Below, piece by piece: positions 21,772 through 59,398 of a DNA stretch of 59,407 nucleotides. Source of the stretch: an uncultured Clostridia bacterium (GTDB lineage Bacteria; Bacillota; Clostridia; Oscillospirales; Acutalibacteraceae); contig CANPBX010000012.1 in NCBI GenBank assembly GCA_947572385.1, forward strand, positions 1-59,407, in the 5' to 3' direction. A program made the position numbers and the translations under genes. Position 1 is the stretch's first letter. Each line of letters opens with the position of its first letter. The notes below the pieces were generated by a model, which saw nothing but the letters and a program-made list of their open reading frames with translations, was not told where the DNA came from and made no database searches.

Positions 21772-22665
21772 ATGTTGGCCTTTATCAAAAAGCAGGTGCT
21801 CTGGTTTATGGGCCGCATAACCGAGGACCGCATAGATTCTTCTGCGGCACACAGCGCCTTTTTTCTGATCACTTCATTTCTGCCATTTTTAGCGTTCCTG
21901 CTGACACTCATGCAGCGCATACACTTCTCCTCAGGGGTCACGATGATAGAGGCCGCGCTGAACCTGCTGCCCGACGCCTTTTCCGCGGCTTTGGGAGAGA
22001 TAATCCCCAGCCCCATTGAGGCCTCCGGAGTGCTGCCAGTGGCGGTGATAGCGGCGGTATGGTCCTCCTCCATGGGCATGGTCGCGATAATCAAGGGGCT
22101 GGACCATATCTACGAGGCGGAGCAGCCCCGCAATTATATCCTTCTCAGGGTAATGGCAGTGATATACGTGGTTATGCTGGCAGTGGTGCTCATAGCGGCG
22201 GCGGTCCTATTGGTCTTCGGCTCCACCATCTATCGGGCTATCCAGGACCGCTGGCCTATTGTAGCCGCCCTGCTCATAAACTTTAAATCACTGGTGAGCT
22301 TTGTAATGCTCTTTATCTTCTTTACTCTGCTCTATACCTTTGTGCCCCGCCGCCGGGCGAAATTCCGGAACAACCTTTTGGGAGCGGTATTCGGAGCGGC
22401 GGGATGGGTGCTGTTTTCGTACTTTTTCTCGCTGTTTGTTGAAAATTATTCCAATTTCTCCATTTACGGCAGCCTGGCTACCCTGGTGATAATGATGTTC
22501 TGGCTGTTCTTCTGCATGTACATCCTATTCCTTGGAGGCGAGGTGAGTATGTGGCTGGAGCGGAGCGGTGTGGGCGGGGACTTGAAAAAGCTGCTGGCTG
22601 GAAGAGAGAAGCCTCAGGCCGGGACCGTCCAGACGGCAGGAGGGAAGCAGGAGGAGGAAGAATGA
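21772..22665 (+). CDS. YihY/BrkB family membrane protein
   Basis: 297 residues with about six transmembrane helices, including the family region that starts HSAFFLITSFLPFLAFL and a later WVLFSYFFSLFVENYSNFS stretch. Formerly mis-annotated as ribonuclease BN; the true role is unknown, possibly transport. GGGAGG lies 11 bases before the ATG at 21772; a GTG at 21760 touches the ribosome site and is less likely. Its stop overlaps the next start as ATGA. Confidence 0.88.
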   Translation: MLAFIKKQVLWFMGRITEDRIDSSAAHSAFFLITSFLPFLAFLLTLMQRIHFSSGVTMIEAALNLLPDAFSAALGEIIPSPIEASGVLPVAVIAAVWSSSMGMVAIIKGLDHIYEAEQPRNYILLRVMAVIYVVMLAVVLIAAAVLLVFGSTIYRAIQDRWPIVAALLINFKSLVSFVMLFIFFTLLYTFVPRRRAKFRNNLLGAVFGAAGWVLFSYFFSLFVENYSNFSIYGSLATLVIMMFWLFFCMYILFLGGEVSMWLERSGVGGDLKKLLAGREKPQAGTVQTAGGKQEEEE

Positions 22666-27174: not shown

Positions 27175-27191
27175 TAACACGCCGCTCTAAG

Positions 27192-27220
27192 TCATATCCC
27201 TATACCGTCCCTCATATAAA
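27192..27220 (+). promoter_or_regulatory. Sigma-E-like sporulation promoter before the cwlJ-like gene
   Basis: TCATATC (27192-27198) matches 6 of 7 positions of the mother-cell sigma-E -35 (KMATATT). After a 14-bp gap, CATATAAA (27213-27220) matches 6 of 8 of the -10 (CATACAHT). The start codon is 27 bases on. In Bacillus cwlJ is sigma-E dependent, which fits. Confidence 0.55.
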
Positions 27221-27247
27221 TAACCACAAACATAAGGAGGAAGGGAC

Positions 27248-27682
27248 GTGGCGTTTTCTGACAGAGAGCTGCTGGCACGGATAATAGAATGCGAGGCGGG
27301 CGGCGAGGGGGATACCGGGATGCAGGCCGTGGCCTGTGTGGTGATGAATCGGGTACAGGTGACCTACGGCGAATACGGCAGACTCCTTACCGTGCGGCAG
27401 GTCATCTATCAGCCCAGGCAGTTCACCTGCGTGATGGAGACTGTTGGCGGGCAGTACAACATACAGAATATCTATAATATGCGGCCCACTGATGTGCACT
27501 ACAGCATTGCAGACTGGGCTATGGCAGGAAACCGGCTGACAAACCTGGGCTTTGCCCTTTGGTATTTCAACCCCTATAAGCCCACCTGCAGGGAGAACTT
27601 CCCCTCGCAGGTGGGGAGGTTCGTGATACGCCTGGGGGACCACTGCTTTTATAACCCCACGGAGAGCTACGCGGACACCTGA
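27248..27682 (+). CDS. cwlJ: CwlJ/SleB-type spore cortex hydrolase
   Basis: 144 residues. Hydrolase_2 domain over nearly the whole length: LLARIIECEAGGEG (catalytic Glu about 15), VVMNRV (about 31), IYQPRQF (about 55) and the ending HCFYNPT. There is no signal peptide, as in Bacillus CwlJ, which is made in the mother cell and placed in the coat. GTG start with AGGAGG upstream. The GerQ-like gene follows, the same gene pair as in Bacillus. Confidence 0.82.
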   Translation: MAFSDRELLARIIECEAGGEGDTGMQAVACVVMNRVQVTYGEYGRLLTVRQVIYQPRQFTCVMETVGGQYNIQNIYNMRPTDVHYSIADWAMAGNRLTNLGFALWYFNPYKPTCRENFPSQVGRFVIRLGDHCFYNPTESYADT

Positions 27683-27714
27683 CAATATTCTTTACACTGA
27701 AAGGGAGGCAGCTT

Positions 27715-28137
27715 ATGACAGGGAATCAGAGACGTGAGTGCGGAAGGAACTCAGCCGCAATGCGGAGGCTAATGAGCCGGGCAGACTATATGGCAGAGGC
27801 CGACGGCGCTGCGGCGATGGACAATTTTGAGCACCCGGTGCAGGAGGATTTCGACTCCGAGGAGATGCGCGGGTCCATGCAGATGATCCTGGCCCAGAAC
27901 ATAGGGAACTTTGTTGTTATAGAGTTCCTCGTTGGTACCGGGATAATCACCCGCAAGCAGGGGATGCTCTACTTTGTGGGCCGGAGCTTTGTGACCCTAT
28001 ATGACGAGGCGGCAAATAATTTCATTATCTGCGACATATTCTCAATAAAGTTCGTCTATTTCTACATGCCAAACGACCGCCCGCGGCAGAACTACAACCT
28101 GCTGCCGGGGAATAATAACAGCAATATGCATAGGTGA
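27715..28137 (+). CDS. GerQ-like spore coat protein
   Basis: 140 residues. The C-terminal half (about 55-122) reads MILAQNIGNFVVIEFLVGTG then GMLYFVGRSFVTLYD and IFSIKFVYF. Its spacing of hydrophobic strands and its Gly-Arg turn resemble the GerQ domain, which in Bacillus holds CwlJ in the coat. The N-terminus is charged and low in complexity. Call rests on this resemblance and on adjacency to the cwlJ-like gene; direct family membership is not certain. Confidence 0.6.
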   Translation: MTGNQRRECGRNSAAMRRLMSRADYMAEADGAAAMDNFEHPVQEDFDSEEMRGSMQMILAQNIGNFVVIEFLVGTGIITRKQGMLYFVGRSFVTLYDEAANNFIICDIFSIKFVYFYMPNDRPRQNYNLLPGNNNSNMHR

Positions 28138-51844: not shown

Positions 51845-51985
51845 TCATTTTAGCGACTCGTATTTTTTCTTGGTGGCAAGCCCGCCGCGTATATGCCGTT
51901 GGGCCTTGTTCACGGCCAGGATATTTTTCACGTCCCGATAGAGGCCCCGGTCGATATACTTCAGACGCTGGGAGACGTCCTTATG
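51845..51985 (-). CDS. spoIIID: spoIIID, 3' segment (separated from its 5' part)
   Basis: From the core CATA (51985-51982) the frame reads KDVSQRLKYIDRGLYRDV then KNILAVNKAQRHIRGGLATK and KKYESLK, 45 codons and TGA. This is the C-terminal half of SpoIIID, the mother-cell sporulation regulator; HIRGGxAT is its signature. No start codon or ribosome site serves it. The matching first 39 codons are at 59,248-59,364 on the same strand. Joined at CATA they give 84 residues, close to the usual SpoIIID length. It is unlikely to make functional protein unless the element is excised. Confidence 0.93.
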   Translation of the reverse strand, partial: HKDVSQRLKYIDRGLYRDVKNILAVNKAQRHIRGGLATKKKYESLK

Positions 51986-53516
51986 TATGGTTGTCTGCAA
52001 TCACTACGGTTTCTTCCAGACCTAAATCGCCCAGAAGCCGCAGGTAGATGTCCACGTTACCATCCTTGTCCACTTCTATCTTCTGGATGACGCGCTTGAG
52101 CTGGGCGTTAGTGAGCTGGCGCACATCGGTGATGTCCTCGAGGGTCTTGAAGGTGTTTTGCAGGATGCCCTCCAGCTGGTCGCCTTTGGTGATATTATAT
52201 CCCACAATTTTTAACTCATTTTCCAACCGCTGGATTTCTTTCCTGGAACCGCCTATCTTTTCGTTGAGTTCCTCTCGGCTGATAAGGTCGTCGGTGTACA
52301 TATCCATGTACTTCTGGCGGGCCTTTTGGAGCTTCTGGAGCTGGGCGGTCAATTCTTTTTCATATTCCTGGTTATCATCCTTGGCGCGGTAGACCCGCTG
52401 GAACTCCTTCACAACACAGGAGATGACATTATTCTTTTGCTTTAATATCCCAGCGAAATATTCTTGCAAGGCGTCGATCAATTCGTCCTCGTCCACGGTG
52501 ACGGCGTTGGGGCAGCTATCCGCGCCCCGCCCGGTGTGGCCGGAGCAGACCCAGCGCACATAGGTGTTTTTGTAGGTGCGCACGGTCCGGTAGAAGGACC
52601 AGCCGCACTCCTTGCACTTGATGAGGGTGGAGAACAGGTGCTTGTTGCTCTGGCGCTGGTGGTCGGTGCGGAAAGTCTTGTGGCGGGAATCCAAAATCTC
52701 CTGGGCCTGCCGGAAAGTTTTGGGAGAGATGATCTGCAGCTCTGGACGATCCACCACGATCCAGTCATCCTCAGGCTTGTCCGCTCGCTGGCCGGTGAGG
52801 AAGTCGGAGACCTCCTGCTTGCCGTTGATGATTTTGCCGGTATACAGTTCGTTGGTGATGATGCGGCAGATGGCGTTCTGGCTCCAGGAGCAGTTGCGCT
52901 TGGTACGCAGGCCGCGCTCGTTGAGGGTGTTGGCTATCTTAGCTGCGCCCGCCCCTTCCTCGGTGTACATATGGAATATTTGCCGGATGACTTCGGCTTC
53001 CTCCGGGTTGATGGTCAGGTTGAAGTAGTCGCCAATAGTCTTGTCGTAGCCATAGACAATGTTGGGAACCCGGCCTTTTTCGGCATTCATCTTCTTGCCG
53101 AACTTTACCCGCTTGGAGGTGTTGGCGCTCTCCTCCTGGGCGATAGCCCCGAACATCGTCAACACTAATTCGCTGTTTCCCATGTTTGTCATGTTAGCGG
53201 TAAGGAATTGGGTTTCAATACCCAGTGACCTTAGCTTGCGTACACTTTGCAGCAGATCCACGGTGTTCCGGGCAAAGCGGCTGATGTCTTTGACGACCAC
53301 GATGTCGAACAGATGATGCTCAGCGTCAGCCATCATGCGCAGGAACTCCTTGCGATTTTTTGTCTTCGTGCCAGAAATGCCCTCGTCAGCGTACAAGCGC
53401 ACAAGCACGTCGCCGGTGCGCTTGGTGTATTCTGAGAAGAATTCTTTCTGGGCTTCCAGGCTGTTAAGCTGGTCCTCCTTGTCGGTGGAGACGCGGCAGT
53501 AGGCAGCGATGTTCAT
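51981..53516 (-). CDS. Large serine recombinase next to the left junction (candidate excisionase)
   Basis: 511 residues. Resolvase domain (about 1-150) with catalytic Ser in AAYCRVSTD (Ser10) and the arginine-bearing DISRFAR. A recombinase domain (about 160-270) comes next, then a zinc ribbon with CKECGW and CSGHTGRGADSC (about 300-340), and a coiled coil (about 375-440). ATG at 53516 follows GAGGTG. The stop codon lies on the attachment core, so in an excised circle the protein would gain 14 residues. Size and position match SpoIVCA of the sigK skin element. Confidence 0.93.
   Translation of the reverse strand: MNIAAYCRVSTDKEDQLNSLEAQKEFFSEYTKRTGDVLVRLYADEGISGTKTKNRKEFLRMMADAEHHLFDIVVVKDISRFARNTVDLLQSVRKLRSLGIETQFLTANMTNMGNSELVLTMFGAIAQEESANTSKRVKFGKKMNAEKGRVPNIVYGYDKTIGDYFNLTINPEEAEVIRQIFHMYTEEGAGAAKIANTLNERGLRTKRNCSWSQNAICRIITNELYTGKIINGKQEVSDFLTGQRADKPEDDWIVVDRPELQIISPKTFRQAQEILDSRHKTFRTDHQRQSNKHLFSTLIKCKECGWSFYRTVRTYKNTYVRWVCSGHTGRGADSCPNAVTVDEDELIDALQEYFAGILKQKNNVISCVVKEFQRVYRAKDDNQEYEKELTAQLQKLQKARQKYMDMYTDDLISREELNEKIGGSRKEIQRLENELKIVGYNITKGDQLEGILQNTFKTLEDITDVRQLTNAQLKRVIQKIEVDKDGNVDIYLRLLGDLGLEETVVIADNHT
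51982..51985 (-). other. Left attachment core of the spoIIID element
   Basis: CATA on the minus strand, followed outward by AGGACGTC (spoIIID) and preceded inward by ACAACCATA (element). The recombinase stop codon TAA uses these bases. The same CATA occurs at the right junction (59250-59247). A short shared core is usual for large serine recombinases. Confidence 0.75.
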
Positions 53517-53558
53517 GGGGCACCTCACTAATCAATTTGAAACGTTTTGTTACTACCG

Positions 53559-53587
53559 ATTTTATCACACTTCTTTTAGGAAAGCAA
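53559..53587 (-). promoter_or_regulatory. Promoter of the junction-proximal recombinase
   Basis: TTGCTT (53587-53582), 17-bp spacer, TAAAAT (53564-53559) on the minus strand. This looks like sigma-A; the -10 reads GATAAAAT, 6 of 8 to a sigma-E box, but no sigma-E -35 is in place. A palindrome AAACGTTT lies just downstream. Confidence 0.5.
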
Positions 53588-53600
53588 TAAAAATATTGAC

Positions 53601-53622
53601 GGAGCCGTTTTCTTTCGGCCCC
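53601..53622 (-). terminator. Terminator after the HepT/MntA pair
   Basis: GGAGCCG (53601-53607) and CGGCCCC (53616-53622) form a stem with one mismatch. On the minus strand TCAATATTTTTATT follows. Confidence 0.6.
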
Positions 53623-53629
53623 GCCATAT

Positions 53630-53977
53630 TTAAGAATTTGTTTTGATAATCGATTTTAATTCTTTATGAAGCATGGGAATGTCTACAGATACGGTGTCCC
53701 ACACGATCTGCATATTGACCCCGGAATAGCCATGCACAATCCGGTTGCGCATGCCGTAAATCTGCTGCCAGGGGATGGTTTTAATCTGTGCCTTTGCCTC
53801 GTCGCTCAGAGACTCCTTTGCAAGCTCGCCGATTTGCATCAGGTTGAAGACGGTAGCCTCCAAGCGCATGGTGTCGGATGAAAAATCTTCCAGCGTACGG
53901 CAATCGGCACAGTAGCGCAGAATGCTTTCGATATGCTGAAGGATTTTTCTCAGCACCGCAAGATCCTTACTGCCCAT
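53630..53977 (-). CDS. hepT: HepT-family toxin (RNase, HEPN fold)
   Basis: 115 residues. All-helical HEPN protein with the RX4-6HXY motif as RNRIVHGY (about 82-89), the toxin active site. LEDFSSDTMRLEATVFNLMQ is typical of the family. In characterised systems the partner MntA blocks HepT by adding AMP to the tyrosine of this motif. ATG at 53977 overlaps the end of mntA by 11 bases. Encoded inside the spoIIID element. Confidence 0.88.
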   Translation of the reverse strand: MGSKDLAVLRKILQHIESILRYCADCRTLEDFSSDTMRLEATVFNLMQIGELAKESLSDEAKAQIKTIPWQQIYGMRNRIVHGYSGVNMQIVWDTVSVDIPMLHKELKSIIKTNS

Positions 53978-54266
53978 AAATCGGCACCCCTGTCTGCCGT
54001 ATCTCTGCATCAATTTGAGAGCCCTCCTCGATTTGTGAAACATCGATAAGGTCAACCGGTACGCTCAGTGTGGATGAAACACCTTCCAACAGGCCAAAGA
54101 ACGCCAGCCCGCGCAGGCCGCTGTCAACCAGAATGTCCACGTCACTGCGGGGAGTGGCCTGTCCCTTTGCGTAGGAGCCGAACAGCACCGCTCGCCGCAC
54201 GCCATAGCCAGCGAAAACCGGGTGGAGGATATTTTCGATTTCGTGGATGGAATAAACCTTTTGCAT
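53967..54266 (-). CDS. mntA: MntA-family nucleotidyltransferase antitoxin
   Basis: 99 residues. The minimal nucleotidyltransferase motif GSYAKGQATPRSDVDILVD (about 30-48) has both metal-binding aspartates, and a third acidic position is in PVDLIDV. It is expected to AMPylate and so neutralise HepT. ATG at 54266 (MQKVYSIHEIE) follows GGGGGC; a longer reading adds 47 residues without support. Confidence 0.88.
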   Translation of the reverse strand: MQKVYSIHEIENILHPVFAGYGVRRAVLFGSYAKGQATPRSDVDILVDSGLRGLAFFGLLEGVSSTLSVPVDLIDVSQIEEGSQIDAEIRQTGVPIYGQ

Positions 54267-54324
54267 AAGGCCGCCCCCTTTCAAGACTATTGTACCGCAT
54301 TGGCGGAAAAATAGCAAGAGGAAA

Positions 54325-54510
54325 TCACATTGCCCTGATAATGGTTTCATGTTCCGTTCCTTCCTCTGCCTGAACTTCTTGCGCCGCCTGTTGGACAGCG
54401 TTTTCAACCTTTGGGCGGTTCGATTCGAGGAAAACCTTTAGTATGTAGTTGGCCGTTTGGCTGTCGGGGTTGGGATTATGTAAACGGTAATTCAGCTTTT
54501 TTTTACTCAA
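54325..54510 (-). CDS. Small conserved-looking protein of mobile elements
   Basis: 61 residues from TTG, with AAAGGAGG 13 bases upstream. Helical, with a polar N-terminus (SKKKLNYRLHNPNPDSQTA) and VENAVQQAAQEVQAEEG. I have the impression of similar small proteins in clostridial integrative elements, but I cannot name a family. It is one of few candidates in the element for a small accessory such as a directionality factor; nothing in it shows that. Confidence 0.6.
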   Translation of the reverse strand: MSKKKLNYRLHNPNPDSQTANYILKVFLESNRPKVENAVQQAAQEVQAEEGTEHETIIRAM

Positions 54511-54563
54511 ATTGTTTGCCAGGCCTCCTTTGGATTCAGTTTCTCGATGTGAATATATATGAA

Positions 54564-54593
54564 AAGCGGCCCGGTGATAGCACCGAACCGCTT
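54564..54593 (-). terminator. Terminator after the relaxase remnant
   Basis: AAGCGG-cc-CGGTG / CACCG-aa-CCGCTT hairpin; on the minus strand followed by TTTCATATATATT. Confidence 0.7.
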
Positions 54594-54629
54594 GGGTAAA
54601 TTAATTGGAGTCGGGTATTATTCGGGCTG

Positions 54630-54833
54630 TCAGGCCAATGATTGCTTCCAATAGGCGGTCTTGGTAGTCAAAAATTCAGAAAATGCGTTCTCTCCATCGC
54701 AGGAAATGCCACTGACCATGCGCTGGCCGGTGGCATTGTCCACGACTTTTTTCTCCTGCAAGCAGTGGGAAATCACGCCTTTCATGGCACTAATTGATTG
54801 GCGGCTCTCCTGGATAAATTTTATGGTTGCCAT
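54630..54833 (-). pseudogene. Truncated MobA/MobL-type relaxase, N-terminal remnant
   Basis: 67 codons reading MATIKFIQESRQSISAMKGV then GQRMVSGISCDGENAFSEFL and TTKTAYWKQ before a stop. This is the N-terminal start of the conjugative relaxases common in clostridial integrative elements, normally over 400 residues. The catalytic and histidine motifs are lost. No ribosome site is obvious. It shows that the element derives in part from a conjugative element. Confidence 0.72.
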
Positions 54834-54837
54834 CATC

Positions 54838-55267
54838 GATCTGTCGGACGTGATCTGCTACGTGAATTTTAGCAACATCTTATACCGCAACGCCGCCCAG
54901 AACTGCCATGCTGCTCGCCAGAAGAAAGCTGAGAATATGTTCCAGCCCGAGGGCATCGTGCTGGACATGAAAATCGGGCCGTGCCAGTTGAGCAAGCTGT
55001 ATGCCTACAATGGACTCATGCCCTCTGGCGGAACCCGAATCGATGGTATTGAAAGCGATAACCCCCACCGGATGATTGTAATTGATAACCCCGAAGTGAC
55101 TGTCCATGATGTGCCGGTCATCACCGTCATTGATAAGTTCATGCCCCTGTTTCCAGCTTTGGTGGCGGGGACCGAGTCAAGAAAAAACGAGAACCTTTGA
55201 TGAATTCAAAGCGCTTTTAAAAAAGCATTTTCGCTGGGAATCACAGGCTTTTGAGAGGTATGCATAA
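54838..55267 (+). pseudogene. Remnant of a conjugative-element gene, frame-shifted
   Basis: From 54838 the plus strand reads VICYVNFSNILYRNAAQNC, GIVLDMKIGPCQLSKLYAY, MPSGGTRIDGIESDNPHR and VPVITVIDKF with no own start. Near 55165 sense passes to another frame reading TFDEFKALLKKHFRWESQ to TAA at 55267. It looks like internal and C-terminal pieces of a larger gene of an integrative element. I cannot name the family with confidence. It lies head to head with the relaxase remnant. Confidence 0.5.
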
Positions 55268-55270
55268 ATA

Positions 55271-55309
55271 AAATGAACTGGCATTATATATCAATACGCC
55301 AGTTCATTT
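55271..55309 (-). terminator. Terminator of the second recombinase operon
   Basis: AAATGAACTGGC (55271-55282) and GCCAGTTCATTT (55298-55309) form a perfect stem; on the minus strand TTTTATTTATG follows. Bases 55310-55465 hold nothing I recognise. Confidence 0.75.
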
Positions 55310-55465
55310 CTAATTTACACGTACCGGATAGTAATTGGAGGTATTGTGCTTACAAAGCATTTGCCGCTTGTGAAAACAATATATCACATTATTTAGTGAT
55401 TCCTGACACGCTATACAGGAAGACCATTTCACTTCATAACCCACAACAGAAGTTCTGTTGTGCTA

Positions 55466-55810
55466 TCAGATAGCCTCGGCTTTATCCAAAAAGAAGAACG
55501 CAGAACGGGCGTCTGCCGCGATCCGTCCAGGCACACGGTAGGAACAACCCAGGTCCCAGCCGTGAAGCTCCGCCAGGATCGTACACAGTTTATAGCTGGA
55601 TATTTCCAGCGGCCGCTTGCCATCATATACTTCCCGTTGGATCATATGCGAGGTAAAACCCCTTTTGCCATAAGGCTGGATCAGCAGGATCCGCCCATCC
55701 TTGGAGATAAGAAGGCGAATCCGTTCAGGACTGCCCATGGAGCGAAGGGCTTCCACAAAAATATGGACCCGGTTAGCTTTCAAATAAAAAGAGATGTATA
55801 CGCCATTCAT
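55466..55810 (-). CDS. Accessory protein of the second recombinase, shortest domain copy
   Basis: 114 residues. It reads ERIRLLISKDGRILLIQPYG and later LHGWDLGCSYRVPGRI, which parallels the strand-turn-WD-Y pattern of the two ORFs before it and of the recombinase C-terminus. The start overlaps the previous stop as ATGA, with translational coupling likely. Function unknown; presumed partner of the recombinase. Confidence 0.72.
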   Translation of the reverse strand: MNGVYISFYLKANRVHIFVEALRSMGSPERIRLLISKDGRILLIQPYGKRGFTSHMIQREVYDGKRPLEISSYKLCTILAELHGWDLGCSYRVPGRIAADARSAFFFLDKAEAI

Positions 55811-56268
55811 TTTGCCGTCTTTTTCTCTTTGGCCTTCCACTGCTCAGGGGCGCTGAAATCAAAGAGGAGCATGATCTTGTTCTCCACCGTCACAACGTGT
55901 CCCACGGCCCTGTAGACCCAGCTGGTATCCCAGCCCCATATCTCATAGATTTGTGAGGAGAACCTGACGGATTCCATGCGTCTTGGTGCGTACTCCTTAA
56001 TGTTTTTGCGCCATATTATGCTGTCCTTGTCTTTGACGGTCACCGGGACGGCCAAAAGGCTTTTCTTCTGTGGATGTACCTCCAGGCGGATGCGCTCACA
56101 GCAGTTCAACGCTGTCAGCGCCAGCCTGTTGAAGGTTATCCCTGAACTCCAAATGGTGCAGGACGGCGAAGCACAACTGCTGACACGGGAGAAAAGCTCC
56201 CCGCTGACTACTTGAAACCCCTCGATTGAAATCGGCTCTACTTCGGACTGGAATTGATTCATATTCAT
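55807..56268 (-). CDS. Accessory protein of the second recombinase, middle domain copy
   Basis: 153 residues. ISIEGFQVVSGELFSRV, GITFNRLAL, RIRLEVHPQKKSLLAVP, IIWRKN and IYEIWGWDTSWVYRAVG line up with the same landmarks in the preceding ORF and in the recombinase tail. GGGAG lies just before the ATG, 11 bases after the previous gene stops. No enzyme motif seen. Confidence 0.75.
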   Translation of the reverse strand: MNMNQFQSEVEPISIEGFQVVSGELFSRVSSCASPSCTIWSSGITFNRLALTALNCCERIRLEVHPQKKSLLAVPVTVKDKDSIIWRKNIKEYAPRRMESVRFSSQIYEIWGWDTSWVYRAVGHVVTVENKIMLLFDFSAPEQWKAKEKKTAK

Positions 56269-56279
56269 TTGCTCCCATC

Positions 56280-56876
56280 CTAAACGCGGTCCGTGGTAAT
56301 GTATCCATCCGCAAGGTTGATTTTATAGCTGTCTTCATGCCGTTCTGCCGGGATACCGAAATACTCCCGCCACTCGCCGGGAAGATAGGACTTTCCCCTT
56401 TTTCCTCCCACAAACAGTTCAAAGTCGGTCAGCTTGAATAGAAACAGCACTTCCTTTTGATAGACGGCGGGATTCCCCATGATCTTATACCTGTACTCGC
56501 TGTCCCAGCCCATCAGGTCGAATATTTTGGCGGCGAATATCCTGCAAAGCATATCCCGGTTCACAAGCTCCTTATCCCCGCCGACTTTCGCCCAACGCAG
56601 GGCGTCCGGCGTTTCGGGCGGACAGGGCCGGATGATCAGCCGCTTTTGCTCCGGATGTATCAGCAGCTGTATGTGCGTTACCCCCGGAAACCGTCTGAGA
56701 CAGGACATATTGAAACGGATGCGCGCCGGCCAGATGGTGAGCGCTGGTTCGCGGGTATGGGAGAACAGTTCCGCTTTTGTGACCTGGAACCCCGCCAGGT
56801 CCGGTACGATCTCTTCTTCTTCCCCGTCAGGCATTGTTTTGCAGAATATCTGGTCCAGCTTATCCTGTGCCGGCAT
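56280..56876 (-). CDS. Accessory protein of the second recombinase, first domain copy
   Basis: About 198 residues. PDLAGFQVTKAELFSH, RIRFNMSCLRRF, HIQLLIHPEQKRLIIRP, LRWAKV and IFDLMGWDSEYRYKIMG align with the recombinase C-terminus. The ATG at 56876 lies inside the end of the recombinase gene (17 bases overlap); neighbouring GTG codons could also start it. It has a further C-terminal part ending NLADGYITTDRV. Confidence 0.75.
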   Translation of the reverse strand: MPAQDKLDQIFCKTMPDGEEEEIVPDLAGFQVTKAELFSHTREPALTIWPARIRFNMSCLRRFPGVTHIQLLIHPEQKRLIIRPCPPETPDALRWAKVGGDKELVNRDMLCRIFAAKIFDLMGWDSEYRYKIMGNPAVYQKEVLFLFKLTDFELFVGGKRGKSYLPGEWREYFGIPAERHEDSYKINLADGYITTDRV

Positions 56877-58662
56877 TTCCACCACCATCCTTCTTTTTGA
56901 GTTTGTCCGCCAACGCTTGAAGCTCGCAGTCGGTGGGCGTTCTATATTGCTCGACCCCCGGGGCTGGCACGCTGGGCCTGTCCGCTTGCCACGCTGCGCT
57001 TTGACCCATATAAAAGATGCCGTTCTCGCGGATGTGGTCATAGAACTCATCACCAAAGCTGTATTCCCAGGCTTCCGCGTATAGCTCAGCGCGCCGCAAG
57101 CGGGCTCCGCTGGTTGGAGACACTGGCACGGCAGACACCGCGTCTTCCAAATTATAAACAATGATCTGCTTATGCTCCCGCTGCACCCATGTCCCCCGGA
57201 CCTTATATAAGTAATTCGGGTCCCACTCCATCATGCGAAAGAGAGCCGTGCCAAAATGCTGGCAGCGCAAAACTTTTGCATACAAGGGCATATCCCCATC
57301 AGGGCGCCATTTGATGCAGTGTACAGCCCCTTTGTCACAGGGCCGTATGGCGATCTTCCGCTGGGAAGGATGCAGAAGCAGCTGGATATGGCCCACGTCG
57401 GAAAACCTCCTCACACAGAACAGGTTGAATATGATCTTGTCTATCCCGATCGTTACCGCCGGCCCCTCATATCGTGCCTGCGTAAACTGGCTCCTGACCA
57501 CCTGATAGCCTTTGAGGTCGAACAGGGAAAAAGAACTTTTGAGCAGGCGGATCTCCCTGCGCGGTATGCTTACGCTGTTTGACAAGTCATAATACAGCCC
57601 GGGGTCATCATTGATCCAATGGTGGTTAATGGGAACGAAACCGCGAAAGACGCCGTCGTCTATCACATGGAGGGGAGGCATTCCGCCGCGCATATTGTGC
57701 TTCCTGTTTTCAAGGAGGGCCTGCGCCATCTCGAATTTTTCCCTTGTAATGATTGCTTCGTGTTGATCCCTGTAGTGATACTGATCCACGTCCTGGCGGT
57801 TCTTTTTGCGCTTGTGGTTAAACAGGTCGGAGGTAAAGGTCTTCCAGGTCAGGATATCGCCACAGTAGCGTTCGTTGGAAAGGATGTAGCCCACCGAACT
57901 GCTGCTCCAGCCGGTGTTTCCGGTTTTTGTCCTGCATCCAATATCCGTGAGAAAAGCGGCGATATCTGCCTGGGACCAGCCATACAGATAAGCGTCGAAA
58001 ATAAAGCGGACCACATTTGCCTCGGCCTCGTTGACGACCAGCGGGGCATGCTTGATGTAGTGGCCAGCGGCGTCCCGCTGCCTGTCATAACCAAGCAGAG
58101 GAGGGGCCAGCAGCTGGCAGTCCTTGAACCGTTGGGACAGGGACCAGATCATGGCTTCCCGCTTTTTGACGGATTCCTCCTGGGCGAAGGAGGCAAGAAA
58201 GGTGAGCATAAATTCGGAACTTTCTTCGATGGTATTCAGATTATCCGTTTCAAAAAATACCCCCACCGGTGGATCAAGGTTCTTGAGCCTACGGACCAGA
58301 GAGATACAGTCCACCAGGTTCCTGGCAAAGCGGGAGACGCTTTTTGTTACGATTAGGTCATATTCTCCCTTTTCACAGGCGGCGATCATGTCGTTAAACG
58401 CCGTGCGGTTTTTCAGTGAGACCCCGGAGATCCCCTCATCGGCGTAAATATGCCGCAAACTCCAGTTGGGCCGCTGGTCTGCCAGCTGGCGGTAGTGGGC
58501 CTGCTGAAGCTCAAAGGAAGACAGCTGCGCGTCGTTGTCGGTAGAAACGCGGCAATACGCGCATACACGGAAAAGCTGGTTCCTGAGAGTGGCTTTCGGT
58601 TTGGCGGGAATAAAGCGTTTCTCCCAGGTATCGTGATCCGGGAAACAGATGGGTTCAGGCAT
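56860..58662 (-). CDS. Second large serine recombinase with extra C-terminal domain
   Basis: 600 residues. A leader of about 40 residues precedes the resolvase domain with catalytic Ser in CAYCRVSTDND and VSRFARNLVD. A recombinase domain follows (LLGYDRQRD to KRKKNRQDV). In place of the usual long coiled coil there is a domain (about 380-560) with GYQVVRSQFTQ, HIQLLLHPSQRKIAIRP and MMEWDPNYLYKVRG. That domain recurs in the next three ORFs. ATG at 58662 overlaps the XRE gene end and follows GGAGGGG. Confidence 0.9.
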   Translation of the reverse strand: MPEPICFPDHDTWEKRFIPAKPKATLRNQLFRVCAYCRVSTDNDAQLSSFELQQAHYRQLADQRPNWSLRHIYADEGISGVSLKNRTAFNDMIAACEKGEYDLIVTKSVSRFARNLVDCISLVRRLKNLDPPVGVFFETDNLNTIEESSEFMLTFLASFAQEESVKKREAMIWSLSQRFKDCQLLAPPLLGYDRQRDAAGHYIKHAPLVVNEAEANVVRFIFDAYLYGWSQADIAAFLTDIGCRTKTGNTGWSSSSVGYILSNERYCGDILTWKTFTSDLFNHKRKKNRQDVDQYHYRDQHEAIITREKFEMAQALLENRKHNMRGGMPPLHVIDDGVFRGFVPINHHWINDDPGLYYDLSNSVSIPRREIRLLKSSFSLFDLKGYQVVRSQFTQARYEGPAVTIGIDKIIFNLFCVRRFSDVGHIQLLLHPSQRKIAIRPCDKGAVHCIKWRPDGDMPLYAKVLRCQHFGTALFRMMEWDPNYLYKVRGTWVQREHKQIIVYNLEDAVSAVPVSPTSGARLRRAELYAEAWEYSFGDEFYDHIRENGIFYMGQSAAWQADRPSVPAPGVEQYRTPTDCELQALADKLKKKDGGGNAGTG

Positions 58663-58987
58663 CGGGTATCCCCTCCTCCTGCAGCTGGCGAAGCTGTAGG
58701 TTCTTTTTCGACAGTGCGAAAGCAAGCTTATAGACCAGGGCTTTTTCCTCTCCGTTCAACGCAAGGGAGTCAAACCCGAGGGAATCCGTACGTCCCAAAA
58801 GATAGTCTGTGCTTACGCCAAACACATCTGCAATCCGCGAAAGCGTGTCCAACGAGGGCTGCCGGATGTTACTTTCGTAGGACGAGATGGTACTTCTGTC
58901 TACACCGATCAGGCTGGCCAGCTGGCTTTGGGCTAAATTTTTGGACTGTCGGAGATAACGGAACCGTTCTGGAAAGTCAAAGATCAT
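58655..58987 (-). CDS. XRE-family repressor
   Basis: 110 residues. Helix-turn-helix with RFRYLRQSKNLAQSQLASLI and DRSTISSYESNIRQPS (about 9-45), followed by the SinR-like FGVSTDYLLGRTD. The C-terminal helices may dimerise. It overlaps the recombinase start by 8 bases, so it is likely to control the whole recombinase operon, including itself. Confidence 0.88.
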   Translation of the reverse strand: MIFDFPERFRYLRQSKNLAQSQLASLIGVDRSTISSYESNIRQPSLDTLSRIADVFGVSTDYLLGRTDSLGFDSLALNGEEKALVYKLAFALSKKNLQLRQLQEEGIPDA

Positions 58988-59016
58988 TGCCTACACCACC
59001 TTGCTGATTATAAAGA

Positions 59017-59069
59017 ATTATACCAGCAAACCTGTTACAGTGGGTAGCATCTGTGCGACAGTTTGTAAC
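59017..59069 (-). promoter_or_regulatory. Promoter and candidate operator of the XRE-recombinase operon
   Basis: Extended -10 TGG-TATAAT (59025-59017, minus strand) without a good -35. Upstream GTTACA (59034-59039) and TGTAAC (59064-59069) form a spaced inverted repeat that the XRE protein might bind. Confidence 0.45.
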
Positions 59070-59163
59070 GTTTGGGCTTTTGGGGCTGCTTTTTTGCTGC
59101 TATTTGGTTTTGCGGCAAACCAGTCAAGAAATCAGAAAAGTAAAATCCCTGAATAGAAAAAAG

Positions 59164-59200
59164 CCAGTGTACACTCTTGCATCTGTGTACACTGGCCTTT
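59164..59200 (-). terminator. Strong terminator just inside the right end of the element
   Basis: CCAGTGTACAC and GTGTACACTGG form a perfect 11-bp stem with a 10-base loop; on the minus strand TTTTTT follows. It ends transcripts of the spoIIID 5' segment. In an excised circle it would instead lie just after the junction-proximal recombinase. Confidence 0.88.
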
Positions 59201-59211
59201 CCACTATTTCA

Positions 59212-59364
59212 CTAGCCATAGCAATCGTTCTGTTTTGTTTCTTCTATATGCACCGTACTCTTACTAACCCCAAACTGCTTGGCAGCGCAGCGGACGGTTG
59301 CCTTATTTTCCACGATATACTCCCCTAGCTTGGTAGCGCGGTCGTCGATAACATTGTTTGACAT
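59212..59364 (-). CDS. spoIIID: spoIIID, 5' segment (separated from its 3' part)
   Basis: ATG at 59364 begins MSNNVIDDRATKLGEYIVEN then KATVRCAAKQFGVSKSTVH, the conserved N-terminal half of SpoIIID with its helix-turn-helix (about 23-39). At codon 39 (CAT, 59250-59248) it enters the element and reads IEETKQNDCYG before TAG at 59214. The 50-residue product keeps the recognition helix but lacks the C-terminal part. GAAGGTG lies 6 bases before ATG. The missing 45 codons are at 51,848-51,982. Confidence 0.93.
   Translation of the reverse strand: MSNNVIDDRATKLGEYIVENKATVRCAAKQFGVSKSTVHIEETKQNDCYG
59247..59250 (-). other. Right attachment core of the spoIIID element
   Basis: CATA on the minus strand, preceded by AGTACGGTG (spoIIID) and followed by TAGAAGAAAC (element). 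Pairs with the left core at 51985-51982. Confidence 0.75.
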
Positions 59365-59369
59365 ATAGG

Positions 59370-59398
59370 GCACCTTCTTTCGGTGCTATATATCTATG
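59370..59398 (-). promoter_or_regulatory. Leader of spoIIID: hairpin at the ribosome site and partial sigma-E -10
   Basis: GCACC-GAAAGAA-GGTGC (59386-59370) can fold over the AAGGTG ribosome site. CATAGATA (59398-59391) matches 6 of 8 of the sigma-E -10; its -35 would fall beyond the window. SpoIIID is sigma-E dependent in Bacillus. Confidence 0.45.

Follow-up and report, generated by a model that had tools for sequence, protein, structure and literature searches.

Can the gene for a mother-cell regulator that is cut in two by an integrated element still serve sporulation? This question is raised by a stretch of 59,407 nucleotides from an uncultured gut bacterium, a member of the Clostridia in the family Acutalibacteraceae (contig CANPBX010000012.1 of assembly GCA_947572385.1; the whole stretch is called the window here), in which the spoIIID gene is interrupted between short direct repeats and in which exact removal of the interrupting element gives a single open reading frame. 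Our answer, to which we assign a probability of roughly 80%, is that the window carries a member of an integrative element family that is devoted to spoIIID and works like the skin element.

The profile search of the own genome with PF12116 (cut-off 27 bits, search threshold E 0.001) returned two matches, both on the minus strand, at 59233-59355 (model positions 2-42) and 51854-51994 (model positions 34-80). The 5' half of the gene (59248..59364) holds codons 1-39 (MSNNV...SKSTVH; 51.9 bits) and the 3' half (51845..51982) codons 40-84 (KDVSQRL...ESLK; 68.3 bits), the 45 codons lying at 51848-51982 and the stop at 51845-51847. Each half is bordered by a copy of the core CATA on the minus strand, at 59247..59250 on the N-half side, where its position matches that in other splits, and at 51982..51985 on the C-half side, and the two copies are 7,265 bp apart, exactly the split of two same-strand halves that had been read from the sequence alone. 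That sequence-only reading had also predicted a rejoined protein of 84 residues, and the joined 39 and 45 codons indeed encode a protein identical at 84 of 84 residues to the intact SpoIIID of a genome of the same genus (G018); the residues of both halves agree with that protein, and the joined gene differs from its counterpart by 20 synonymous and no non-synonymous changes. A second, intact spoIIID, which would have spoken against the prediction, was not detected: the own genome (2.39 Mb in 84 contigs, 95% complete) gave no PF12116 match beyond the two halves at E 0.001. Directly upstream of the 5' half lies the -10-like sequence CATAGATAT (59390..59398, minus strand), recognised by its sequence and its promoter class; the matching -35 would fall past the contig end.

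The split recurs in many other genomes. Two surveys with PF12116 were made, one of 80 relatives, 67 of which had a match, and one of 395 genomes drawn evenly from the order and at least 90% complete, with a match in 357. From the table of the latter, 27 genomes with a best match that looked half-length were picked and their places and DNA read, so that any additional half beside a full-length best match falls outside this count. In sixteen of the picks a single contig holds the two halves, and the split is at the same His codon (G000, which is the genome of the window, G001, G010, G056, G062, G109, G120, G135, G166, G185, G245, G276, G323, G336, G358 and G423), in five the halves are spread over two contigs (G127, G212, G391, G402, G427), three show one half alone (G065, G118, G219), and G066, G307 and G434 were left unclassified. 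The survey of relatives adds G005, G022, G035 and G040, bringing the same-contig cases to 20, whose elements range from 3.0 to 34.9 kb; three of these genomes (G022, G035 and G056) consist of a single contig. With 20 same-contig cases from two surveys all split at this one codon, chance can be excluded. The PF12116 searches listed no intact spoIIID for any of these 20 genomes, a third match in G056 being weak and below the cut-off, and where both halves share a contig, no stop interrupts their matches. The earlier statement that the halves in the window are intact holds. What had been described as a single case is thus a widespread element family at one spoIIID codon.

Two genomes show additional arrangements. 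In G135, which is already split, an extra spoIIID N-half is present elsewhere (contig C23, L082). G026 has an intact spoIIID 7.5 kb from an element with a broken integrase, of which a 43-residue match is left, and its contig C5 (L038) contains a 156-bp duplicate of the N-half region; the host gene seems here to have escaped an element that no longer works. A full SpoIIID flagged at a further locus (L109) was ruled out because the alignment ran through stops.

All 20 same-contig elements encode a serine recombinase, which is the only blastp protein cluster common to the 21 elements compared (these 20 and that of G026); the next cluster was found in 7 of 21, in a comparison in which the ORF caller missed many small genes. 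In the window, this protein is a large serine integrase of 511 amino acids (51981..53516, minus strand) with Resolvase, Recombinase and Zn_ribbon_recom domains and a PHROG integrase match. Serine recombinases inside the element had been noted before; as a small correction, a single one of them (51984-53516) lies at the border and is shared, and the second one (56860-58725) has counterparts in close sister elements only. Searching genome contigs with the window integrase gave 189 relatives, and the best 80 were analysed as named loci. At 76 of them the integrase match adjoins a spoIIID 3' half, at a distance of up to 80 bp in 66 and somewhat further away, with longer integrase tails, in 10; one locus runs into the contig end and three lie outside spoIIID. 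Both halves were present within the analysed stretch at 15 of the 80 loci, the 5' half being beyond the stretch or unseen at the rest. The hosts belong to the Lachnospiraceae and Oscillospirales and several are cultured strains: among these best 80, carriers are Blautia glucerasea, B. schinkii, B. massiliensis, [Ruminococcus] torques ATCC 27756, Extibacter muris and Schaedlerella arabinosiphila as well as Flavonifractor sp. An82, Pseudoflavonifractor phocaeensis An507 and An569, Agathobaculum butyriciproducens and Angelakisella massiliensis. Cultured carriers with the two halves seen on a single contig are A. butyriciproducens DSM 100391, Flavonifractor sp. An82, P. phocaeensis An507 and S. 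arabinosiphila DSM 106076.

Some elements are more alike than their host genes. Across the full length of the G010 element, identity to that of G005 is 97.8%, compared to 81.7% for the spoIIID halves, and no alignment is obtained for the 2 kb downstream. Likewise, between nine chosen loci from Lachnospiraceae and eight from Oscillospirales the integrase proteins are 76-90% identical and the spoIIID 3' halves 48-68%. The family has therefore spread horizontally, with fresh insertion at one codon. In the pair G000 and G010, flank and element are similarly close (downstream flank 96% over 835 bp, spoIIID 97.5%, element 94.4%).

Upstream of the integrase we found a small conserved gene, in the window encoding 61 amino acids (54325..54510, minus strand), which is likely to be the recombination directionality factor (RDF) of the element. 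Its consensus is KKRKLNYRFHNPN..TADYILKILIEAN..KVE.AI, and a similar gene was seen at 68 of the 80 named loci, where only co-oriented matches were kept, and in 17 of the 20 survey elements at E 0.01. No family in Pfam, NCBIfam or PHROG corresponds to it. The gene is also found beside the integrase at the three loci outside spoIIID (L103, L105 and L119) and at four loci from IMG/VR (L181-L184); thus, it goes with the integrase and not with spoIIID. L103, L105 and L119 are close relatives in both integrase and RDF, and their integrase frame continues beyond the core.

The promoter of this candidate RDF gene belongs to the same class as those of intact spoIIID genes, a class that in C. difficile is called sigma-E-dependent, the spoIIID promoter of that species being said to fit the sigma-E consensus (PMC5025042, in its open text). 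The pattern shared upstream of 30 intact spoIIID genes is GT.ATAA-N13-GCATATATAT, and a matrix trained on these 30 upstream regions recovered 29 of them in a leave-one-out test; a promoter was called when its score exceeded 95% of the dinucleotide shuffles of the same region (40 each). The matrix recognises 55 of 60 non-redundant RDF upstream regions, thinned from 87 (mean 14.5 versus 2.4 bits), and 5 of 80 sampled upstream regions of other element ORFs; it supersedes two stricter patterns, present in 28 and 10 of 62 RDF upstream regions. In the window, the -35 block lies at 54576-54583 and the -10 block at 54551-54562 (together 54551..54583, minus strand), and with 16.0 bits this site is the best of six minus-strand matches above 13.5 bits. 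Since equal scores occur elsewhere in the window, the single site would be weak evidence without the family. Use of the promoter by sigma-E is what its class suggests.

Taken together, these features suggest the following course. The large serine integrase would insert the element circle at the one conserved His codon of spoIIID. Because its promoter belongs to the class used by intact spoIIID, the candidate RDF would be expected in the mother cell once sigma-E is active; integrase and RDF would then excise the element exactly, the halves would become one spoIIID, and SpoIIID would be made. Excision in sporulating mother cells would thereby restore gene function. The forespore chromosome would keep the element, which would therefore be inherited. 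Since SpoIIID could not be made before excision, the RDF would need to be expressed without SpoIIID.

Several observations weigh against this course. No excision product was seen, and the predicted circle junction is not in the own assembly. The 61-amino-acid protein is a candidate RDF, and its gene was unseen at E 0.01 in 12 of the 80 loci and 3 of the 20 survey elements, some of the loci ending near the integrase. The three loci outside spoIIID still bear the candidate RDF gene. As to the promoter, a plus-strand match at 22253, inside a coding frame, scores the same as the RDF promoter, and the spoIVA upstream regions collected as a second sigma-E control (22 recovered from 30 loci) showed no common motif by eye. 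Some insertions are young, as seen in G010 and G005, and spore formation by the uncultured host is unproven.

A comparison with known systems, as far as they are described in the open text of the papers cited, shows both likenesses and differences. In the C. difficile skin element, which splits sigK, the integrase has a sigma-A promoter and the RDF, CD1234, is a protein of 72 residues that depends on sigma-E and SpoIIID (PMC5025042). In both cases the gene of a mother-cell regulator is split, a serine integrase (CD1231 in C. difficile) is present that is not under sigma-E control, and a small RDF, in our case a candidate, has a sigma-E or sigma-E-like promoter. The difference lies in the target, since spoIIID acts one step earlier than sigK, and in the control of the RDF, since CD1234 needs SpoIIID whereas the RDF of the spoIIID element would act before SpoIIID exists. 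The gin element in gerE of Bacillus cereus ATCC10987 is also a non-phage island in a very small gene for a mother-cell transcription factor and has more than one serine recombinase, but it occupies another gene in one strain, whereas the spoIIID family covers at least two orders with one common integrase (PMC5595907). SPbeta in spsM of Bacillus subtilis shares the attachment site inside a sporulation gene and the pairing of an integrase with a sporulation-controlled RDF, but it is an active prophage, and spsM is a polysaccharide gene and no regulator (PMC6957869). The yin element in yabG of Clostridium botulinum V73 has a recombinase and a predicted small RDF as well, but it sits in a sigma-K-regulated gene and is described as unique to strain V73 (PMC10747680).

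Integration cuts not only spoIIID but also the integrase gene. The integrase stop TAA at 51981-51983 is built from core and host bases (ACA TAA from CATAAG), and such a stop was found in 18 of 26 readable survey borders and 64 of the 80 named loci. The stretch that integration has separated from the integrase gene, its last 14 codons and a stop, is located at the far border, at 59204..59248 on the minus strand; it was identified by its frame, by a codon-position test and by its unbroken form in L181-L184. For this border we omitted G127c, G307n, G066, G434n, G015a, G135x, the duplicates L101 and L102 and all sequences that continue as intact spoIIID; 39 were kept and thinned to 35. The integrase frame is open for at least 14 codons in 26 of these 35 sequences, the other two frames in 7 and 2. 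The consensus of the tail is YGSNKIERFIWVIK, the stop is at codon 15 in 60%, and the first, second and third codon positions have an information content of 0.67, 0.94 and 0.55 bits. In L181-L184 the integrase gene is unbroken with 525 codons and ends with AYSSNNLERFIWLIS or TYRSNKIERLIWRIK. L181 is a phage contig with polymerase, ligase, tail and endolysin families; L182-L184 are near-identical across 21.5 kb and of unsure nature, so that only L181 is counted as phage. DNA symmetry explains part of the conservation of the tail, as the element ends carry inverted arms, for which all 20 of 20 elements give the best alignment in a single register (no shuffle control), but the open frame, the common stop, the codon-position bias and the unbroken genes of L181-L184 argue against symmetry as the whole explanation. 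The tail frame together with the 525-codon genes thus places the attachment site of the free element (attP) within the integrase gene, and integration removes 14 C-terminal codons, shortening the predicted protein from 525 to 511 amino acids.

The same data bear on the strongest competing explanation, an ordinary mobile element or prophage that uses spoIIID as an attachment site and is excised at random or under stress, without developmental control. With L181, a phage contig carries the same type of integrase with an unbroken attP, the elements transfer between species, and the upstream regions of the integrases also speak for it: sigma-A-like pairs were found in 53 of 78 (shuffles about 10) and a spoIIID-class promoter in only 7 of 78 (mononucleotide shuffles). 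The spoIIID-class promoter in front of 55 of 60 candidate RDF genes is at odds with this explanation, and a constitutive integrase paired with a sigma-E-controlled RDF is also what the developmental system of C. difficile uses (PMC5025042, open text); we therefore regard the lack of developmental control as improbable. Matches in GenBank phages (two) and plasmids (one) are weaker, a search of IMG/VR with alignment A1 returned no additional relative above 45% identity among its best 80, and no SpoIIID half was found in the IMG/VR best 80 at E 1e-4.

A dead spoIIID, its halves being relics in strains whose ability to sporulate is gone or disappearing, is less probable still. Recent insertion in some genomes and the uncultured state of the host would fit it, but the half-gene matches are free of stops, and between G000 and G010, a pair that matches in flank as well as in element, spoIIID shows 6 synonymous and no non-synonymous changes (23.5 and 1.5 for G000 and G022). 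In addition, other sporulation genes are present in the own genome: Spo0A, SpoIVA, SigE and SigG scored above the cut-offs of their models, and a SigF-like factor did not reach its own. The sequence-only reading had gone further and taken the intact halves as a sign of maintained selection. This can be kept in part: since some insertions are young, intact halves alone are no proof, and the low non-synonymous change is supporting evidence only. An assembly artefact, which the draft state of the genome in 84 contigs and the end of the window just upstream of spoIIID might suggest, is rejected because the same split occurs in the single-contig genomes and in the isolate Agathobaculum butyriciproducens DSM 100391 (G245).

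The skin-like reading gains a further aspect from sigK, which we searched with TIGR02846 in 23 chosen genomes. In seven of them (G000, G010, G020, G022, G109, G120 and G336) sigK is in two halves on one contig, the other 16 being unsorted, and all of the seven except G020 have a split spoIIID as well. The sigK halves of the own genome lie at C26:24371-24709 and C26:14376-14726 (loci L083 and L100), and the element of about 9.65 kb between them carries a different serine recombinase, which ends 11 bp before the 3' half. The sigK halves of G109 are 78 kb apart (C1:194044-272815), far more than in the other sigK splits. A split sigK in the same genome implies two DNA gates in series; together with the spoIIID-class promoter before the conserved small gene, it strengthens the earlier proposal that a DNA gate precedes sigma-K. 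We tentatively suggest, as a possibility that is less probable than the skin-like reading itself, two ordered rearrangements in the mother cell, a sigma-E-driven and SpoIIID-independent excision from spoIIID followed, in genomes with both genes split, by that from sigK, together with an integrase of 525 amino acids in the free and 511 in the integrated form, the latter perhaps latent or excision-ready.

According to the open text of the literature, intervening elements target sigK, spoVFB, spoVR, gerE, spsM and yabG (PMC6957869, PMC10747680). The sequence-only reading did not count spoIIID among the known targets, which agrees with our search, as no report of a split spoIIID was found in open-licence PMC papers, a body of text that leaves aside supplements, subscription journals and preprints; spoIIID is also absent from the main text of a recombinase survey (PMC10083194). 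Phage phi6013 of C. pasteurianum encodes a spoIIID gene of its own (PMC5027557, open text). With a split in 21 of 357 spoIIID-bearing genomes of one order and the 3' border in well-known gut genera, the split can be mistaken for loss of spoIIID when genomes are used to score sporulation. Together, the integrase, the candidate RDF and the attachment sites provide a ready set for studying how serine integrases acquire direction, and the carriers in culture allow a direct test of excision.

The remaining genes of the elements include cargo, which varies between them and comprises, from reading the sequences, polysaccharide-type genes, ABC transport and others. In the window, a HepT-like protein (53630..54055; PF01934 above, NCBIfam HepT below cut-off) and an MNT-type, MntA-like nucleotidyltransferase (53967..54407; PF01909 and PF18765 above, NCBIfam MntA below cut-off) are followed by three unnamed ORFs at 55466..57161 (55466-55840, 55807-56268 and 56280-57161) that match nothing in Pfam, NCBIfam or PHROG. 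Further along lie the second serine recombinase (56860..58725) and an HTH_3 regulator (58655..58987; RstR-like below cut-off), all of these genes being on the minus strand. The region 55466-58725 combines this recombinase with several unnamed ORFs that are mutually similar by eye, and is perhaps an element nested in the element. The 10 ORFs of the window element include no phage structural or packaging genes (Pfam, NCBIfam, PHROGs) and no relaxase or transfer genes (Pfam, NCBIfam), the larger sister elements lying outside this search. At the other extreme of cargo, the 3.0-kb mini-element of G035 (L039) consists of one glycosyltransferase-like gene, the integrase, a weak RDF match and little else.

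Outside the element, the small gene in the region 27191-28137 is without a Pfam match and is reminiscent of GerQ. It follows a gene of the Hydrolase_2 (CwlJ/SleB) type, and both are preceded by the strongest spoIIID-class promoter of the window, which scores 22.1 bits at 27191.

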